Below, piece by piece: positions 31,821-47,017 of a stretch of DNA of 64,000 nt (position 1 is the first letter of the stretch; each line of letters starts with the position of its first letter). The stretch spans positions 186,001 through 250,000 of the forward strand of contig JNEN01001244.1 of NCBI GenBank assembly GCA_000697355.1. The letters are read 5' to 3'. The DNA comes from Syncephalastrum monosporum B8922 (Eukaryota > Mucoromycota > Mucoromycetes > Mucorales > Syncephalastraceae). Below the pieces are notes generated by a model. That model was given only the letters and a program-made list of their open reading frames with translations. It ran no database searches and had not been told where the DNA came from. The translations under genes and the position numbers were made by a program.

Positions 31821-32230
31821 TGTGGCAGCTGCTTGTTTATCATCGAGAAACGGGTGACAAGGATCATATGGACTACCTAGATAATTCACCCTGCCGGCGT
31901 CCATCATCACATTCGTCTAGTATTAAACTAGCCTATCGAGATTCATTCTAAAGTCAGTTGGTCGTCCGACTGAAACGCACTTCCTACATACCTACGGCAG
32001 AGCCGGGTTCGTTATTGCGCGCGCAAGGCGGCAGGCCGCCACCTCATCTAACTAACGCGCCCGTGGAGGGCACGCGTCTAATTCTTTTCGTTAAACTCAT
32101 GTCTCATGATATTTCATCCGATGTGAGTCACTTACCATGATGGGTGGGGCTGGAGATATTTGGAATATATCTATAGTAAAAGGTTTAAACTACTACCGGC
32201 TTCTACCGTAGGCTAGGGCGGAGGAGGAGG

Positions 32231-32275
32231 ACAAAGCAAGGAGAACAAAGCAAGGAGAACAAAGCAAGGAGAACA
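32231..32275. repeat. 14-bp purine-rich tandem repeat, about three copies
   Basis: Unit ACAAAGCAAGGAGA repeated three times head to tail, within a longer purine-only stretch (32,217-32,300). Confidence 0.85.
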
Positions 32276-33699
32276 AAAGGAACGGAAAGGAAAAGGAGCG
32301 GACCTGACATCAAATGAGTATATGTTGACAGGTTTCAGTTTCTTATGTAGTTCAGTTTACTTACAGACAGAGGGAAAAAAAGCAGGTGAAAAAAAAACCT
32401 CTGAGAGGAAGGGGCGCGAGCGGAAAAGAGGAAGAGAGACGCAAACGGGAGAGAAGACGGGAGGAGAAGAAAACGTAATACAACAAGCTACGTATTCGTT
32501 GGAATAATGTTAAAGCTGTCCGATGTATTGTGTTTATAACGCGACAACTTACTTTCGTGCACACCGGTGCATGGACGAGCAACCGGTGGCAGAGGGACTT
32601 GAGGGGACCTCGTGTCGTCTATGTCGTCTCTGTTAGATTATACCCATAGTTCTATGTATAAATGTACTTGCCGGAGAAAAAGACTTTGAGAAGGACAAAG
32701 AAAGAAGAAGAAAAGCAGACGTGGGAGAAACCAGCTGGACTTTATATAAGATGGGCCTCGGTCGATTGTGAGACAAGAACATTGATTCGGTGAACACCAA
32801 TGGGGATAGGAAAGCAGACAAGCGGACACTGATAGTGATCGACGTCAAGATTTTTATCGCGTTTCAAAGTCTACATTGACCTGTTCAGGTATCACATTTG
32901 CGAGTGGGAAAAAGAGCACAAAAGAAAATGCCCTTTTTCTTTGTCAGACGTTTTCCACGGGAGTGGCATCAGATATCAAAGTCATTCTTGACTTCATATC
33001 TCGTCAGACAACATTCGCAAAATCAAGAGATGCATTAGGTGCTGAATCGGCTACAATCGAACCTCTGCATTGCTTAGTAGGGGAACATCATAATAGTTGA
33101 TAATAATAGACAGCCTTTGGGAGGGAGCTGCTGGAGCCCATGCGTCGCCATCATATTGCTAACTTAGATGGCCTATGTATTTGTTTCCATTGTGTCTATC
33201 ATCAATAGAGGGGATCAAGACCACAATACGTCCTGTAGGTATACCAATATTAATAAAAATACACCATACGGAATCGAGTTATGAGTGTAATGGTCCGAAC
33301 ATGTCAGAGATGGAAAGGATATATAACAGAAGACTAGTTCCGTGAGTAGCAACCTGTTACATATCAGATGAAACCTCTCTGGCGATGTCGACATGTTGTA
33401 GATATACAGTACATCGCCCATCGACGGCTGATGTTATCCATAGTGACATATGGAAATATAGAATAAGTATAATGTAATCGTCGTCTCATACAAACGGGAA
33501 TCATGTCCATTGCACTTGCTCAATACCGCATGGGCGCATTTCTGGTAACCAGACAATAACATACTTCAGCCACAGAATCACCCTATCAAAGGTAAAGGGA
33601 TCAATCCATGACGCGGAGCGACTTGTCGTAGTCTGTCAAGGATGGCCCACATTGACACAGAGAGAAAATACTCGAGGATTGTGGCTACCGCTACGGACC

Positions 33700-33951
33700 T
33701 TGTCGTACTCATAAAATACACGAGATTAAGCCAAATGTTGATGCACGGTTGTACTTCCATTCGAGAATTATATAAAGCGAGACCTGTTATGTGTGAGGCT
33801 TAATCATTCTCATGTTTTCTTGTTTGTAGATGCTGAGAACTTTTTATTTTGCAATGGATGGATTGGGATGGATTGGGATGGGATGGGATGGACCTTTGGG
33901 GTGCATTACAAGCGAGAAAAGAAGGAGAGACGGGGCAGGGCGGAAGCAATG
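33700..33951 (-). ncRNA. Candidate omega-RNA region directly 3' of the Fanzor ORF (speculative)
   Basis: TnpB and Fanzor guide (omega) RNAs usually overlap or follow the 3' end of the nuclease ORF on the same strand. This interval is the matching position for the gene ending at 33952. On the minus strand it includes a CCATCC/CCAATCC tandem block (33854-33892). No structure was computed, so the boundary and even the presence of an RNA are inference. Confidence 0.22.
33854..33892. repeat. GGATGGATTGGGAT tandem block
   Basis: Degenerate G-rich repeat of GGATGG/GATTGG units ending in GGGATGGGATGGGATGG on the plus strand, 60-100 nt beyond the Fanzor stop codon. Confidence 0.85.
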
Positions 33952-36900
33952 TCACTGATGTTGTTCGATGATCTTCAGTACTGTGGCTTCTTGGTCGAAG
34001 GGCAGCAAGGTTTCGCCATCGAATATCTTGCTGGCGCCAGCGAGAGCGATGCATTGTGCTGCCGTTTTGTCACGACCCTGGGTCCCCATACCCTGCTTCA
34101 CAAGGTCGCATTCTGCATTGACGCAGCGAGAGACGCCTAGGTTCACTTTGCTCTGGCCTTTTTGGCGGTAATGAGGATGGATGATGGGCTGAAGACAGCA
34201 GCTGCAAGTCTGTGAGCTTCGGTGCTCGTCGGTAATGGCTACGACAGCGTGTCTGGCCTCGAACTGGCGCATCTTCCTGCCGCCGTACCGAAGATGACCT
34301 CTGATTGTGGAGCCGACACCAGTCCCTTTGTTTCCAATGAAACGTATGGGTATTGCCTTCGCATTTGTGTGCTTCTTTGCAAGCTTGCGTTCCTCTGCGG
34401 CATAGCGCTGATATGCGCGTTTCTTTTTTATCTCTGCCGTGTATTTGAGGGACGCAAGTCGTGCACTGTTGTAGAACCAACGCAAATGCGGAGACATCTC
34501 TTTGCGCATCTGATGTATATTTTTAAAAGTTAATGCCATAATAAATAGTCTAATTTGAGTACAAACTTCATGCGCTTTGAGCAAGTCGCCCACATCTCGA
34601 CAGGCTGACAAACTTGTTGCTGAAAGGGCGTTCTCGGCGGCAGAGACGCACGGGTGAAGGCTCTTCTGAGTCTTGATGAGTCGCAGGTGTCTCGAGGTGA
34701 AGGACTCATGGTGTAGGTGCTTGGCGCTGGTTTTCAGGAGGTGGGCTTTTTTTGCTGGTGGTAAACCACCGTGCTGATTTCGCTCGGTCGGGATGTGCAC
34801 CGACGTCGCCAATGTACATAAACCATAATCGGTTCCGCTCAGCCCAAACTTGGCGTTCTTGTCCTTGAGCTCACTCAGGTCGATCATGTCGACGTAATCT
34901 TCCAACCCGTGCTCCTTCTGTGATGGTCGGATTGGTGGTAGACCAGCTGGTGGCGTGTCTGCAACTCTAACTTCTTTCGCCTTTCCTTTGCTTTTACGGT
35001 CTTTCTGTTCTTGATCACGTCTTGTGAGCTCCCTTTTGACTCTGTAAATGGCCATCGAAAAGTCCTTTGTATCGCGTTGGAATTTTGCTTGATCAAGCTG
35101 GGATAAACTTTCATTCAAAAGCTTTTTGTCGACAGCTTCCTTGCCTTTTTTAATCTTGCTTAATAGATCTTGTAGTTGTACTTCGTTCGCCTTTTCGAAA
35201 TAATGATTTGCGGTGTTTGCCTGACGACGATATGTTCTCCTGATTTCCCACATGGAACTGCGCGGTGGTGTTCTGCGAATGCCTGTAATTCGAGCTTTCA
35301 AATTTGGAGTCACTTGGATGACATTGGTAAAGGACAAGCCGTGTGACCAGCATATGTCGTCGATCCTGTCCAAATCGAAAATTCCAGCGAACATATTTCT
35401 CTTTTGTTCACGGGCAGTGTCAAGGTTCGTGATGGGCTTGTTGTCGTTTCCATGCAGAATGTAGTCAGAGTGCGCCCCGCCTATGATACCCCATATCGTC
35501 GGAGCGTCCAGCGTCATTGAGCTAAGGGCGCCACATGAAGGAATCGGTACTAGCTTGTGTCTCTTTTTTGAAGCGTGTATGGCATCCAGAATCTCGTTTG
35601 CTTGTCGTACAAACGGCACATACTGGCCTAGACAGAATGATTTATCTGTTAGCGGTGTCGGGAAGTACGGCTTGAAAATCGCCACAATCCGACAACCGCA
35701 TCCAGCTCCTCGGCCGTGAGCTCCGTCTCGTGCAGCCAGGCTTCCGCGGCATTAGCGAAGGAAGGTTCAGCAGCGTGGCCTTCTTTACTGAGCAGTAGGT
35801 GCTTCATCAGGCCACCCAGTTGCCGAGTTCTCGCGATACTGGTACCCTAGTTGATGCAACGTTATTATACAGGATATAGATAATATTGCAGGTTTGATGA
35901 TTTACCTTCTCCCTTGGCGACTTCCCCTTGGATTCTGTCTTTTGCTCAATGGCTTTTCGCTCTTTCTTGGCTCTCTTTTTCTGTGCCCTTTTGGCGGCCT
36001 TGCTCTGCTTCGTCTTCGTTTCCGCTATGGCGGCGCTAGCCTTCTTGATGTCATTGCATTTTCAGTAATTCATTAGCTACTGTAGATGTATGTATGCATA
36101 TTGATAGATGTGCCTTCTACCTTTTCTTGAACAATTTCTTCTATTCGTTGTTCTATTTTCTGCAAGTTTTCGTTCGACCGCTCAAGCTGCAACTGATATC
36201 TTTGACGGTTCTCGAGTTGAATGGGGTCCATGTAGTTGTTGGTAGCCTTGCGCAATTTCTTCTGCTCCTGGTATCTTCGTCGTTTCAGTTTCGCTAAATC
36301 TTCTTTTTTGCTGCTTCTTTGACTGCTCTCGGCTTCATGTGTCTGTTCTTTGGGCTTGTCGTCGGGTTTGTCGTCGGGCTTGGGAGACAATATTAATTGG
36401 AACCATGCCTTGCTGAGGGAAAAGAGCATCTTCCGCACTGTCTGTGGGGACCACATATTTTTCAGGTCCGCAGCATAGCGCTGGACAGCTTGAGTCAGGG
36501 CATAAGACATGCCTTCTTTTGAAGGTCGAGTTCGATGAAAATCTTGCTGCTCGTAAGGTAAAAGTTTGGTCCATTCCGGATGCTTATCGCGGTTGTGTCT
36601 ATCATGTCCGAGGTAGAATGTGTGGACGGATGATATATGCTCAGGCCCGAAAAGCTTCATGAGATCATCGCTTTCTGTGAAAGTATGCTCTGGTGGCCGC
36701 ATCACCCTTATCGTCCTTATATCTGCTGGCAGTGAACCCTGCAATGGAAAGCGGGTGTCCGTGGGAATTGCGAGATGCATCATAGTCGCCAAAACGAGTA
36801 GCGCAAGGTCATTGATGTCGTCCGAAATATACTCCATAGCTTCTAGGAGTTTGTTTTTGATGGTCGATTGGGTGGGTTCGTCCATGTCTTTTCGTAGTAT

Positions 36901-37451
36901 GCTACTGATAGTCGTCGTACAAGTTCTGGTGTATTCAATGTCAATGGGCGTCTGTGTCTTGGGCAAGTCTTGTTTTTGTCTGACAGGGGTAGACTCATGG
37001 ATCCGATCAAAGTTGTCATTTACAAATTTTTCCAGAGCACGCTAGGAGCGTATTGCTTGTGATTTCGGAAATGAGCGGCCATCGACTTTCGTTTCAAGCT
37101 GCCGATATCGTCAGCTGTGTCAAGGAGCCCATGTGGCATCGTTTTCATGCTCAACAGTTGCTGTCTTCTTTTATTGCATGCTTTCGTAATCTTCTCGATC
37201 TCTTTTTCGTCTGTGGGCTCAGAAGATACTTTAAGCGATCGGATGATTGTCTTGAGCTTGTTGTCAAATGCTTGGTGTAATAGATCGATTGCTCTTTCCT
37301 CGGTCAATTTGGATGTGGACCCTGATGCCGTTGAAGACGCAGACGCTGATGCGGAGGATGTTGTCGCAGAGGTTCCGGCTTTTAGTGAGACAGGTAGAGG
37401 CCTGAATGTCGAATCGGTAACGTTTTGGCGAGTTTTTCTGCGGGGGGCCAT
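33952..37451 (-). CDS. Fanzor: eukaryotic TnpB-like RNA-guided endonuclease, six exons
   Basis: Fanzors are transposon-linked eukaryotic relatives of TnpB/Cas12 that cut DNA with an omega-RNA guide. My exon model (37451-37024, 36979-36121, 36043-35906, 35846-35669, 35627-34567, 34509-33952) is in phase throughout: 3222 nt, 1073 aa. RuvC-I is FGLSGTDYGL (Asp801). The region usually carrying the RuvC-II Glu reads FIGNKGTGVGSTIRGH and lacks an acidic residue; instead TDEHRSSQTCSCC supplies the Fanzor-type alternative Glu (about 983). Zinc-finger Cys are at about 990, 993, 1017 and 1022, and RuvC-III is GRDKTAAQ (Asp1035). The N-terminal 530 residues are unassigned; they include a Ser/Ala linker, a coiled stretch and a Lys-rich block (about 430-475) that could be a nuclear localisation signal. 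The introns are 41-78 nt; the 41-nt one (35668-35628) restores frame and has CTAAC upstream of its TAG. The 57-nt last intron is frame-neutral. No transposase lies nearby. Confidence 0.88.
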
Positions 37452-39136
37452 AGCTGACAATATGCGAGGAGATGAAAGAGATGAAAGCGGATAAGGTGTA
37501 TGTCGAGAAATGAAACGAAGAAATACAATGATAATGACGTTGAAACAGCAACAGTGATCAAAACGCTGAGACTTGGACCAGCTTATCTCTGTTGGGTTCA
37601 GAAATCTTGCCCGTATTCACATACGCTGAACTGAGGAAAAAAAGTTGAGGTCAGAAACAGACACTGATACTGCATGAATCCTCCGGCTATAGGAAGTTAC
37701 TGGCTTCATATCATATAGATCGCGAATTCAATGTGGAGACGCAAACGGGGCCGCTTTCGCCATCTAATATAGCGCAACAATAAGAAATGTATCTCTGGAG
37801 ACGCTTCATACTGTATTATACAGTATATATTTTCATGAACATGATCCGACGTGAATCTACGACCTATGTTTCGAATGTGAGTGATTCCCTCGTCTACGGC
37901 TACGAGTCTCCACCCTTCCACTTAAGATTCGCTTGCTCTAGTCCATTCCCACCGCTAGATGGAGCCAGCCCCATATCCTCGTTTACGCTTCGCGTCCGTG
38001 GAAAAAGCTGGTTAGATATGATCGTCCTTGCTATGGGCTTTTCCAACTTCAGCCTGACATATGTAGGATTCAAGCGGTATATTATTCTGATAGGTTTGTT
38101 CGGCTTGTTTTCCCATTAATAGCAGAAGACCTACATTGTTTAATTATTAACAGAGTATGGGTCACTCGAGAGATTACGGCGCCTAGATTCCATTGCTTCT
38201 CTCTTGTTTCCTATTCACTCTTCTATTGGTTCCCTCGTCGGACTGGCCCATCTTACAGCCAAAAGGGTCCTGACATAAAGACGCCCTGACGGGAATTGAA
38301 CCCGGGTCTCCAGCGTTCTGCTTATGTAATTCCGGATGATACAGAACCCTAACCTTTTTATAACAAGCCGTGGAACTCGCTTCGCTTCGTCCACGGCTGA
38401 CACTTCGATTGCGTTCCGTGTGTGAATGAGCCACGTCGCATGCAGCTGCGGGCCATCACAGCTTGCACTCGTTCTTCAGGTTTCTCCTGTCCAAGTCGAA
38501 GACTAGCTTGGCGTAAGGCTCCCAGATCCCTTTGCCGGGGGGCGTCGTACCCAGTTGCCGATAGAAACATTCATGGAAATCATATTGCAAGGCTTTCCTC
38601 TATGTGTATGCCGATATAATACCGTATACAGTATGTAGATACCGAATACATGCAATCTGTATGTCAGGAAAGGCACGTCACAGCTAATTTCCCTATGGGT
38701 TTCTTAGTATTTTTCGCCTATTTTTCCTATGAATTTTTGGAGAAAAAGTCTTCAACAATTTTTAATAGAGAATAAAAAATATGGGGGCGCGCGAGGAAAC
38801 GAGAAGTTCTTTTCTTCACCGTCGTCTTAACAGGACCTTTCTCGCAAAGCTACCCGAAGTAAGGTCTACATAGCGACGTAGATAAAATACACAGCAAGCT
38901 ACCTTGATACCCCTGATGCATGGAGCTTTCTGCTTCAGGTCACTTTATGGTCTTGCATATGCTCATTACGGTCGATTTTGGATTGCTTTAATACGTATGA
39001 GAATAACTTAAGATATACAGATAACTGGCGACGACGACAAGACAAAATAAAAAGGACGCTTCCATCGAAGCTAAAGAACAATCTCCCTAACTTGTAATTG
39101 AGTTACATGAAAATGGATTGCCAGGCCTCATTATGT
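37452..39136. other. Gene-poor stretch upstream of Fanzor
   Basis: Holds the presumed Fanzor promoter (37452 onward) and AT-rich DNA with TATACAGTATAT-type palindromes near 37,800. A tRNA-like fragment lies at 38281-38345. Open frames on either strand are not protein-like. Confidence 0.45.
38281..38345 (-). pseudogene. tRNA-like 3' fragment (possible tRNA-derived relic)
   Basis: Read on the minus strand the segment contains GGAGACCCGGGTTCAATTCC, close to the variable loop/T-arm of eukaryotic tRNA-Glu, followed by CGTCAGGGCG. I cannot find a matching 5' acceptor strand, D-arm or anticodon arm upstream. It is therefore probably a decayed tRNA or SINE head rather than a working tRNA. Confidence 0.35.
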
Positions 39137-40647
39137 TTACCCTCTGCGCTTATTGTTGTCATGACTTTCTTCGACGGGGTCAGCAAAAGGATCTGCGAAT
39201 GGATCGTTCTCTTGACCAGATGATGCTGCCTGCGGCGAAGACAGACGTAGACCAGCCAAGTCTTGGACAGCAGAGGAGGTGGAGTCATCGTAGGGTCGTA
39301 CCGGAGGAGGAGGGGGAGAGCGGGTATGAGGCGAAGACGGCTGAGAAGGGGACTGTGGAGGCGGAGAGGGAGAGGTGGTGGTTGCAGGGATATGCAAAGG
39401 CACTTCACCCACAGCCATGGTCTCGTACATCTCAAGGGCACGCAGCAGTTCCTCGTTGGTAGCAAGGAGCGTGCCAATCCACTCCTCGTCTTCTACCAGA
39501 CGCGCGTAACGAACAATTTTCTTTTTCGATTCCTCGCAGCGCTGCTTGTAGTCCTGGAGACGCGCATCATGCTGCAGGTCGATTTCCCAGCGATCTTCGG
39601 ACGTGTTGATGAATTTAAGTGCATTTACCAGATTGTTCCAGTTTTGGTTGGCCAACGCGACTTCTTGTATGATCTTTGGCTTGGCTGCCTCAAGGTCAAA
39701 GCGGCGATTAGCACCAGCTGTGCTGCTACTTCTTGGCTTGGTCTTGGTCGGCGGAGGCGAGTTGGATGGAGGCATCGACATGCGCTTCGGCTGCTTCATC
39801 GGAGGGGGCGTGGTCTGAACAGGACGAGGTGGCATTGTCGGCGTGGCCTCGGGCGATCGTCGCGGCTGTGCTGAAGCACCCATGCTCCCCGAACGGCTGC
39901 GTTGTTTAGCCTTTCCATGTCCAAAATCAGTCAGAGCTACGAGTAATAAGCGACTTCGGTAAAGTGTGCCTTACAGGGCCTACTCCGAGCTTGGATCGTC
40001 CCGAGTCGTACAGATCACGGAGGACATGCATGCCAGGCTCGTTCTTGTACTTGGCTGCACAAGCCGCCACCATGCTCAGCAATTCTTTACGCACTTTCAT
40101 GTCCTCGGCCTGACACAGCATAGGTTAGCCCTCTTCGCCTCTGCCCCAGATATCCATTGAGAACTTACTGAAGACGAAAAGATCAATTCGAAGCGCTCCT
40201 TCATCTTATCGTTCGTCACCAGTTGACCTACGCACGTCGTACTCAGATACAGTATGGGCATCCCTCCCTTCTGCACTACTTACGGCGAAACTTTTGGTTG
40301 GTGTTTTCCATCAAAAGACGGAGGACCTTTTTGATAAAGCAACTGTGTCAACTGGGTTCAGCGACACGCCTCATAGCGACTATACTACCTCGATTACTCT
40401 GAGCTTTTGTTGGCTGGTACCATGCTTCAAGCGTTTGCGTGTGGCCTCGATAGCTTCATAGGCGCCACTCTCTTGCATCATGATGGACTCGGTCAACTGC
40501 TGGAAGATGTACCAGTCGATCTCCTCATAGTTCGACAGTCGTTCTGCAACAAAGAACAGTCATAAGCGTGCACCCCGAGAATAGAGATAACGTACCAATA
40601 TAGAATGTGACAGAGGTCTTCTGAACTTCTTCGGTAAAGATTCCCAT
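39137..40647 (-). CDS. VHS and GAT domain protein, LSB5-like endocytic/actin adaptor
   Basis: Yeast Lsb5 binds Las17, ubiquitin and Arf3 at cortical actin patches. ATG at 40647 starts MGIFTEEVQKTSVTFYI. The VHS domain follows over several short exons: NYEEIDWYIFQQLTESIMMQ, ESGAYEAIEATRKRLKHG, QLVTNDKMKERFELIFSS, and VRKELLSMVAACAAKYKN with YDSGRSKLGVGP. A Pro/Ser-rich linker (RRSPEATPTMPPRPVQTTPP) leads to a GAT-like three-helix domain (KIIQEVALANQNWNNLVNAL to GTLLATNEELLRALEMYETM). The C-terminal tail is Pro-rich with two adjacent DPFADPFADP motifs of the kind bound by AP-2 or EH-type partners. Ends at 39137. About 430 aa. Identification rests on domain order. Confidence 0.82.
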
Positions 40648-44704: not shown

Positions 44705-46297
44705 TTAACAGACGCCTTCGGGGTCGTGTAGCTGGAGTAAGCTGTTGCCTTGGTCGAGCGATTCTGCCAAAAGCGTACTAGTCACCCCACTGTCAGAATG
44801 CCCTTCAGACTTGAGGACATGGATGGCGTGGCCCACGACAAGCAAACCCGGCGGCCGGCTCCCCCCGGCACTATCAAGAATATCGCCAATGGTATCCAGT
44901 GTACCCCAGATGATGCGCTGATCGCTGCAGCTTGCGCGTTCGATGATGGCGCATGGTAAATCGGCGGGATATTTCTGCTTTGTGATGAGATCGGCTGTGA
45001 GTGCGGCCAGTCGGTGGATAGCCATTAAAAAGACGTCTGTACGACAAGGTTCGTACGTAGGTAGCGGAGCAGGTGAGTTTTTAGCGCCTGTGCCGGTGGT
45101 GACTAAGAATTGGGAGGCCACGGAGCGGTGGGTGAGAGGAATGCCTGTGAGAAGCGGGCCTGCAACGGCGGAAGAGAGGCCAGGCAGGACGAGCGGGGTA
45201 TAACCGTGTTTACGGAAGAACAGGACCTCCTCACCACCGCGACCGAAAAGGAATGGATCGCCTTGCTTGAGACGGACGACCCGCTTGCCTTGGCGCAGGG
45301 CTTCCAAGGCCATGCAGTTAAACTCTTCCTGGGCCGCGTCTGCATTGCCCGGGAACTTGCGAGCAATGCGCAGCTCGCACTTCACAAGAGCTACGACTCC
45401 AGCGGGAACGATTTTATCTGCCAACACCAAATCAGCTCCGTCAATTGCCTTGCGTGCAGCCATGGTCAGTAGATCGGGGTCGCCAGGGCCAGCGCCCACG
45501 AGAGTAATGGAAGCTTGCGAGGCGCGGCCCGACGGGGAGGCAGAGGTACTGGGATTGGGATTGGGATTGAGAGTGAGAGGGACAAGACGGGTTGGATCGT
45601 CGATGCTTTCGTAGCCTTCGTCGTGGTGATACGCGTTGAGCAGGTCTTCCATGTCGCGGTCGGACAGCTGGGCCAATCGGTCCATGCTCCAGTACTCGCA
45701 GATTTGGGCCAGCCACTTCATGCGTCGACTACGAGCAGCTGCGCTGGGATCCGACTGGCGTACTTTTTGCCGCAAGAGCCCCACCCGTCGCACAGCATCA
45801 CCCAGACGCGGCGGAAGAGACCCAGCAATATGCCGCCGGATACGGTTTGACAGCTTGGACGCTTGCCCATTCGTGGAAACGGCAATCTGAAGCGACTGAT
45901 CGCGGTGGGTCGAGGTCATGAAGAAGTCGCACTGGTCATTGCTGTCCGTGACATTGACAAACACCCGGCGTCTGTGGCAGTTTTCGACTATGTTCTCTGT
46001 GTCGTTCGACTCGCAGACAAAGACCAAGTCGTGATCGTCGAGAAGCTCGGGCGAGAAGGCGGCTCCAGCCCAAGCGATTTGGTCGTGTGTAATTCGGTAC
46101 TCCAGCTCCTGGCAAACACGAGTACGATCGCCCACCAGAGACACTTGCCCGTCGGCCTCCAGAACAGCAAGGACACGGCTCGCAGCAACGGTGTTGGTAC
46201 CAACGACAAGCACTCTCTTGCCCTTGAGCTGGAAGGCGACCATCAGCGATGCGCCTCCCTGCGGCACAGGTACTCGGGGTGAAAACTTGGAGGTCAT
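44705..46297 (-). CDS. Siroheme synthase: fused precorrin-2 dehydrogenase/ferrochelatase and uroporphyrinogen-III methyltransferase (MET8-MET1, CysG-like)
   Basis: One 530-aa exon carries two enzymes of siroheme synthesis, the cofactor of sulfite (and nitrite) reductase. The N-terminal half is a Met8-like Rossmann domain: MVAFQLKGKRVLVVGTNTVA (glycine-rich NAD loop), DDHDLVFVCESND, and VFVNVTDSNDQCDFFMTST with the Asp (VTD) corresponding to the catalytic Asp of Met8. Next come LSNRIRRHIAGSLPP and the helical C-terminal part of Met8. After a short Pro/Ser linker the SUMT domain follows: ITLVGAGPGDPDLLTMAAR (SAM site), DLVLADKIV, VRLKQGDPFLFGRGGEE, LPGLSSAVAGPLLTGIPLTH and the SAM-loop TGTGAKN. 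The order matches bacterial CysG and some fungal fusions; budding yeast uses separate MET8 and MET1. Confidence 0.93.
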   Translation of the reverse strand: MTSKFSPRVPVPQGGASLMVAFQLKGKRVLVVGTNTVAASRVLAVLEADGQVSLVGDRTRVCQELEYRITHDQIAWAGAAFSPELLDDHDLVFVCESNDTENIVENCHRRRVFVNVTDSNDQCDFFMTSTHRDQSLQIAVSTNGQASKLSNRIRRHIAGSLPPRLGDAVRRVGLLRQKVRQSDPSAAARSRRMKWLAQICEYWSMDRLAQLSDRDMEDLLNAYHHDEGYESIDDPTRLVPLTLNPNPNPSTSASPSGRASQASITLVGAGPGDPDLLTMAARKAIDGADLVLADKIVPAGVVALVKCELRIARKFPGNADAAQEEFNCMALEALRQGKRVVRLKQGDPFLFGRGGEEVLFFRKHGYTPLVLPGLSSAVAGPLLTGIPLTHRSVASQFLVTTGTGAKNSPAPLPTYEPCRTDVFLMAIHRLAALTADLITKQKYPADLPCAIIERASCSDQRIIWGTLDTIGDILDSAGGSRPPGLLVVGHAIHVLKSEGHSDSGVTSTLLAESLDQGNSLLQLHDPEGVC

Positions 46298-47017
46298 ACG
46301 ATGCGTAGTTTGTTGAAAAGCAATACAACCGCTCGAGTAGGGCTATTGAATTATTTATATTATATGCAAAAGATTTTGATAGCTCTCCACGAACGAATGA
46401 TAACAGGCCGAGATGATCCCATTGTCGCAATTTCTGATCTTCTATTTTCTGATTGGCTGATGTTCACACCATCTGCTTTTAAACTTTCCCCGTTCTACTT
46501 CCCTTCGTACCTGGCTGGCACAGAACGATGCTCATTCTACTCCGTCCGGTTCCGTTACCATGTAGCTATATAGCTTCCTATTCATAAAAAATCGACAGCA
46601 AGCAGCATCTATCTTCTATGTAGCCAAATGAATCTGCGTGGAGCATATCTTCATCTTTATCTCTTGTCTAAATGTGAATGTGCTTATCTCTTCCTCGCGC
46701 TACAAGCTTTCTTAATATGATAAGCGAGCCCGAAAAAATAGAGATGCGAGATAACAGTAATGCCGATTTGTTTATAACTACATTTAGTTGGTACCATGAT
46801 AGGTAAAGGGCGAACCAGCGGCCTACCAAGTGTAACCAGACTCCTTATGAGAAAGCTCAAAGTGATATGTGCTAGCTGATCCAATTTATTTCTTCAATCG
46901 GGACAGTATAGAATGCGAATGACGCATGATTGCAAACGAGACAAAGCGTACATATCAGTATGAGAGATAGTCTCCAAAGTAGTACTAACAACAACTATAA
47001 TAATTATAAAAGCAAGG
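46298..47017. other. Intergenic region
   Basis: 720 bp, AT-rich, between the siroheme synthase start and the acyltransferase stop (tandem, both minus). No supported gene. Confidence 0.45.

Follow-up and report, generated by a model that had tools for sequence, protein, structure and literature searches.

Within a 64,000-nucleotide stretch of the Syncephalastrum monosporum B8922 genome (contig JNEN01001244.1, positions 186,001 to 250,000; hereafter the window), a minus-strand gene with its ATG at 37451 and its stop codon ending at 33952 is predicted to encode a nuclease of the TnpB/Fanzor type, and lies inside a 6.85-kb Helitron-like element (31928..38776, minus strand). A single frame of 599 residues holds the RuvC-I motif GTDYG, the glutamate motif DEHRSSQTCSCC, the zinc-finger segment CVNAEC and GRDKTAAQ. 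Alignment of the window copy with six sibling copies from the same genome, not all of which span all introns, supports a model of four exons and three introns, all GT..AG and of phase 0, with splice sites that are kept in the siblings. All parts are on the minus strand. Exon 1 (36121..37451) encodes the N-terminal region and is one open frame of 514 codons in the siblings C78 and C186; intron 1 (36044..36120, 77 nt) is followed by the lysine-rich exon 2 of 46 codons (35906..36043, as delimited by the four-exon model) and by intron 2 (35847..35905, 59 nt). Exon 3 (34567..35846) carries GTDYG, and intron 3 (34510..34566, 57 nt) varies in length between siblings by non-multiples of three. Exon 4 (33952..34509) contributes a GNKGTGVGS motif, a repositioned glutamate, a C4 zinc finger, RuvC-III (GRD) and the stop codon. 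The encoded protein would have about 1,100 residues, with a long N-terminal region that is common to the sibling copies. Reading exon 1 as a separate gene was rejected, as the siblings retain the same order and phase-0 introns and, on visual comparison, the N-terminus of protein P0002 is similar to the end of exon 1. Likewise discarded was a possible 45-nt intron near 37040, which, as read by eye from the alignment, would not alter the frame.

In the window, the four exons add up to 1331 + 138 + 1280 + 558 = 3307 nt, which is not divisible by three. Exon 1 is one base short near 37028 compared with all four siblings covering the site, and exon 3 is one base short near 35678 compared with both siblings that cover it; hence the reading frame is broken twice, and apart from these two places the four-exon model is stop-free. 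Could the gene nevertheless be intact and expressed, the frameshifts being assembly errors or lying in extra small introns in a chain of six exons? The assembly is a draft, and each of the losses coincides with a short A or T run or adjoins one, so that assembly error may account for them; this weighs against a broken gene, as does the closeness of the window copy to C91, C79, C186, C115 and C42 (synonymous divergence, dS, 0.06-0.15 over shared codons). We nonetheless consider an intact gene unlikely. Every sibling covering either site has the additional base, a stop-free six-exon chain would, we infer, need two extra joins stepping over both frameshifts, and no intron is needed near 37028 since exon 1 is an uninterrupted frame in C78 and C186. 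Decay is moreover common in the family: C78 has internal stops, C91 a stop within exon 1, C79 lacks two bases that the other copies have where exon 4 begins, and C42 has deletions. C186 and C115 are open across the exon-1 parts covered, and no full-length intact copy was seen among the retrieved family copies. The window copy appears fairly young, yet frameshifted already. An earlier note on this DNA had proposed an intron-rich gene at 33952..37451. A minus-strand gene between these positions holds, as do the presence of introns, three of which have splice sites conserved in siblings, the occurrence of all four motifs in one frame and the long N-terminal region. Its six exons of 1,074 codons without internal stop give way to four exons and 3307 nt, and its description of the gene as intact, possibly active or host-maintained is not supported, given the two frameshifts and the membership in a transposon family.

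With intron 3 removed, the motif layout reads D-X184-SSQT, CX2C-X23-CX4C, 11 residues, RD. This agrees with the founding Fanzor motif of 2013, D-X(125,275)-[TS][TS]-X-X-C4 zinc finger-X(5,50)-RD (PMC3627910), the spacing from D to SS being 184 residues. The glutamate stands exactly six residues before the first cysteine of the zinc finger (E-HRSSQT-C), a position that forms one half of the Fanzor fingerprint described in PMC10711439, the other half being DPG at RuvC-I. A query profile built from the window protein, P0001, P0002 and L013 aligned in hhalign to three Fanzor-type proteins from the same genome with an E-value of 2.7e-6, a probability of 88.6 and a score of 54.5, compared with 13.6 when the target was reversed and no more than 18.6 in 20 shuffles of its columns; the score was 46.1 against two of these proteins, which have DCG at RuvC-I, alone and 35.1 against the DPG piece alone. 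A PDB search with the same profile gave five matches, all non-significant, of which the Fanzor1 structures SpuFz1 (8gkh, E 0.079) and PpFz1 (9cf0, E 0.28) ranked first and fourth, the two entries between them belonging to an unrelated archaeal protein. The Fanzor-type nuclease of the earlier note is supported by motif order and spacing, by the profile alignment and by these ranks: the window gene is predicted to encode a RuvC nuclease of the TnpB/Fanzor type in which the D...E...D residues follow in order.

Several results weigh against this assignment. RuvC-I reads DYG, and not the DPG of the fingerprint, in the window, C78, L014, P0001 and P0003, and the motif is missing from the annotated protein of P0002. 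The search expression of PMC10711439, which asks for CxxC..CxxC and for 120-160 residues between DPG and E, does not describe the window protein, in which D and E are 181 residues apart without intron 3 and the second pair is CX4C. Pfam PF07282 matched at an E-value of 0.088, under its cut-off, and two AlphaFold2 models were useless, with predicted local distance difference test (pLDDT) values of 40.3 and 38.4. A search of four proteins against NCBIfam returned a single unrelated match (E 0.018). The earlier note had overlooked that RuvC-I has DYG in place of DPG and that the whole 6.85-kb repeat is a Helitron-like element. The protein family falls within the 2013 definition of Fanzor and outside the 2023 fingerprint, and would work like Fanzor.

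The nuclease gene is repeated across the genome assembly (27.5 Mb in 198 contigs), in which a translated search with the 599-residue frame gave at least 31 matches, distributed over about 18 distinct loci. Nine of the 12 retrieved regions match the window region at the nucleotide level, and seven of these nine (C78, C186, C42, C91, C79, C115 and C169) share the element backbone, with 83-96% identity in the main blocks. A contig end interrupts five of the eight backbone copies, the window counted, as expected because near-identical repeats break assembly. The repeat is interspersed, its flanks changing between copies. The window element ends 3' in ..TAGGCTAG at 31928, and its 5' end lies at about 38776, a position that is approximate because the terminus in this copy is degenerate (TTTATTCTC). 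Its 3' module (31928..32750, minus strand) and 5' module (38430..38776, minus strand) are common to short elements without the nuclease gene. Genome searches with the ends gave 44 matches for the left end, 36 of which start no later than position 17 of a query whose terminal base is position 14, and at least 54 for the right end, among the best 40 of 91 candidates scored. At seven places (C105, C181, C68, C179, C43, C170 and C162) left and right ends lie 0.4-1.6 kb apart. In the two short elements that were read, C181 and C105, the element ends are kept, the middle differs and the nuclease gene is absent, the longest stop-to-stop frames having 156 and 138 residues, respectively.

These ends argue for a Helitron-like carrier. 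In gene orientation, the 3' end is CTAG in all 26 inspected cases, with T next in 25 and TTT next in 23. The 5' consensus was matched at 20 of 26 inspected loci (one of the six misses, L094, was a guessed locus rather than a search match) and starts with TC in 17 of these 20; the other three, the window copy included, start with TT. The family hence has the Helitron-type 5'-TC and CTRR-3' ends by which, together with a 3' subterminal hairpin, classical Helitrons are defined (PMC3627910). Terminal inverted repeats were not found in the element, and no target duplication longer than TTT was seen by eye in any of five two-ended copies (window, C181, C105, C68 and C170). The 3' end of a sister subfamily reads ATTTCG-GAA-CGAAAT, then 8 nt, then the terminal tetramer, a stem that, paired by eye, is complete in three of six copies, one of them with a G-T pair, and contains a single mismatch in the other three; the tetramer is CTAG in four of the six.

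Other observations speak against a Helitron. A 3' hairpin better than shuffles was found in none of three copies of the window family. Helitrons insert between A and T, and the 5' flank is not A in every copy. The element encodes no RepHel protein: whole-genome searches placed no Helitron Rep or PIF1 match at C167. A transposon of another class, for instance MuDR- or Crypton-type, would fit the lack of an encoded transposase and of a clear 3' hairpin, and MuDR-type Fanzor elements with 9-bp target duplications are described in Rhizopus, Phycomyces and Mucor (Bao and Jurka, PMC3627910). Against such a carrier stand the lack of terminal inverted repeats and of a duplication beyond TTT, the TC...CTAG ends and the hairpin in the sister family, and we regard it as quite improbable. 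The carrier is probably Helitron-like.

The sister subfamily is represented by L098 (C132:269600-273600), with L014, L021, L023, L024, L030 and L049. It has its 5' end in common with the window element and its hairpin 3' end in common with divergent DYG-nuclease loci. At L021, L023 and L024 the sister tail lies downstream of the gene and shares its orientation; at L014 and L030 it is inverted. The C132 copy has no internal frame longer than 103 residues. TCTA/TCTAC repeats precede many 5' ends of the short copies, which suggests either that the elements insert into such repeats or that their 5' ends grow.

In Pfam, none of ten other frames scanned in the element matched above cut-off, and no transposase was found, so that the element is taken as non-autonomous and would be moved in trans. 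A candidate source of mobilisation is a RepHel protein, Rep and PIF1 helicase matches without stops being present at one locus in the genome, C72. At C189 (L053 4697/4698), a 5'-truncated helicase is continued by a stretch with 70% identity to some 570 bases of the element 3' region. The similarity to C72 stops one base before the similarity to the element 3' tail starts, and 12 of 15 element copies match C189 from exactly that base, the remaining three from a few bases to either side. This sharp junction lies beside a glutamine-rich frame. As proof of an autonomous partner the C189 helicase was set aside, a nested or adjacent insertion fitting equally well, which removes a possible support for the Helitron assignment. 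On the whole, we consider it quite probable that the locus is a non-autonomous Helitron-like fungal transposon carrying a divergent Fanzor-type nuclease gene of about 1,100 residues, frameshifted in the window copy.

The sibling C78 is a mosaic with respect to the window copy. In 150-base bins, the two are 86-99% identical from 38626 to 34877, the outermost bin having only 60%; in the RuvC/zinc-finger half identity is 55-80%, and from 33976 to 32927 it is 40-57%, about that of a forced alignment of unrelated sequence. After one bin of 64%, identity from 32776 on is again 86-100%, until the C78 contig stops. The nuclease core and the adjoining kilobase of non-coding DNA differ together, with the rest of the element constant. 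They form an exchangeable cassette (32780..34800, minus strand) of the RuvC/zinc-finger half and about 1.1 kb of 3' untranslated region, which in C78 is of another lineage. An assembly chimera would produce the same pattern, and C78 does run off a contig end; this is the less likely explanation given that the same cassette type recurs at C122 (87% identity across 1,229 bp, of which about 400 bases are 3' untranslated region) and in pieces at C169. The other type is found in the window, C91, C79 and C42. In Fanzor1 structures, the guide RNA contacts the RuvC/TNB surface and the RuvC-WED junction (PMC11423790), and the guide RNA of SpuFz1 spans the stretch from the stop codon to the 3' end (PMC10432273). 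With a guide RNA so placed, it is possible that nuclease core and guide scaffold were exchanged jointly, a reading based on one mosaic copy.

Between the window and C78, dS is 0.076 and nonsynonymous divergence (dN) 0.026 in exons 1-2, 0.309 and 0.090 in exon 3, and 1.764 and 0.125 in exon 4, where the comparison is between cassette types and dN/dS is 0.07. Past purifying selection has acted on the nuclease core. The exon-4 ratio would also suit a nuclease gene domesticated by the host for a cellular role, an explanation to which we give almost no credence, as the gene is multi-copy and dispersed, has transposon ends and decaying copies, and shows dN/dS of 0.14-0.85 in pairs with dS below 0.2.

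We propose that the transposon operates as follows. Moved in trans, the element would supply a nuclease, and its 3' part an RNA with which this nuclease would cleave matching DNA; the cutting of matching or empty sites may help the element to keep or spread its copies. A role of this kind has been argued in the case of TnpB and put forward for Fanzors linked to Helitrons (PMC10432273). The RNA searches count against this proposal, as no convincing conserved fold was detected at the element 3' end in two tests: for the last 58 nt in 26 copies, 73 of 200 column shuffles folded equally well, and for the last 400 nt in five copies z ranged from -1.9 to 0.6 across nine windows. An Rfam scan of the 64,000-nucleotide window had no match at gathering score, a tRNA search found none, and no guide RNA emerged from these analyses.

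Compared with Fanzor1 proteins such as SpuFz1 and PpFz1, the latter from the mucoralean fungus Parasitella parasitica, the window protein is alike in the D-E-D order of RuvC, in the glutamate six residues before a C4 zinc finger, in its carriage by a eukaryotic transposon and in having shorter, gene-less 'ghost' relatives (PMC10432273, PMC10711439, PMC11423790). It differs in DYG in place of DPG, in about 1,100 residues compared with 600-700 for most Fanzor1s (PMC11423790), in the CX4C second zinc-finger pair and in lying under the Pfam TNB cut-off. Fanzor1 is known from Helitron2 elements in Chlamydomonas and from MuDR-type elements in Rhizopus, Phycomyces and Mucor (PMC3627910). The closest parallel in carriage is Helitron2 CRe-1, 2, 3 of Chlamydomonas reinhardtii, likewise a set of non-autonomous Helitron-type elements with an intron-containing Fanzor1 gene and truncated copies (PMC3627910), whereas the window element has TC...CTAG ends, a fungal host, a protein larger than most Fanzor1s and cassette exchange, and inspection by eye did not reveal in it the paired short inverted repeats of Helitron2. 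The combination of RuvC-I and RuvC-II signatures is the same as in the TnpB clade with repositioned glutamate and D-hydrophobic-G described in PMC10711439, a clade likened here by its description, from which the window protein differs in its eukaryotic introns and host.

It is conceivable, if rather doubtful, that the family represents a separate lineage of large eukaryotic nucleases, combining a TnpB-like D-hydrophobic-G with a Fanzor-type glutamate, spread by Helitron-like elements and subject to natural swapping of nuclease-plus-guide cassettes. Neither a DYG lineage nor cassette exchange was found in the Fanzor literature searched, subscription papers and supplements lying outside that scope. 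Such a lineage would imply that DPG is not universal among eukaryotic nucleases with repositioned glutamate, and that searches based on DPG or on the Pfam TNB cut-off miss a family of large Fanzor-like proteins in early-diverging fungi. The Helitron-like ends bear on the question of why single-strand transposons carry RNA-guided nucleases, and cassette exchange, if true, would be a natural experiment on which half of the protein co-evolves with the guide RNA.

Relatives beyond this genome are few. Protein searches, two of which covered the best ~8,000 candidates, matched one, one and three proteins. A relative in Syncephalastrum racemosum has 43% identity over 96% of residues 300-599, and one in Mortierella alpina 33% over 22% of the 599-residue frame. 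No prokaryotic or viral relative was found in GTDB or IMG/VR by pattern and tblastn searches of limited reach, which returned pattern matches only. In S. monosporum itself, PF07282 has 34 matches, 25 of them above cut-off. Three own-genome Fanzor-type loci were inspected by eye, C154 (L097) with DPG, and C173 (L095) and C164 (L096) with DCG, the latter two being 97% identical to each other. All three are like the window protein in the repositioned glutamate, the C4 zinc finger and RD, but lie above the PF07282 cut-off and are only remotely similar in sequence. Similarity to the N-terminal part of the nuclease family also occurs at L018 (C159), in a frame open for at least 1,080 residues that then passes into a long acidic region; a RuvC part of this frame was not located.

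In the window, the element is flanked by a minus-strand frame at 39137-39970 with a GAT domain just under cut-off (29.8 compared with 31 bits), and a further minus-strand frame at 44705-46342 has sirohaem synthase and tetrapyrrole methylase domains.

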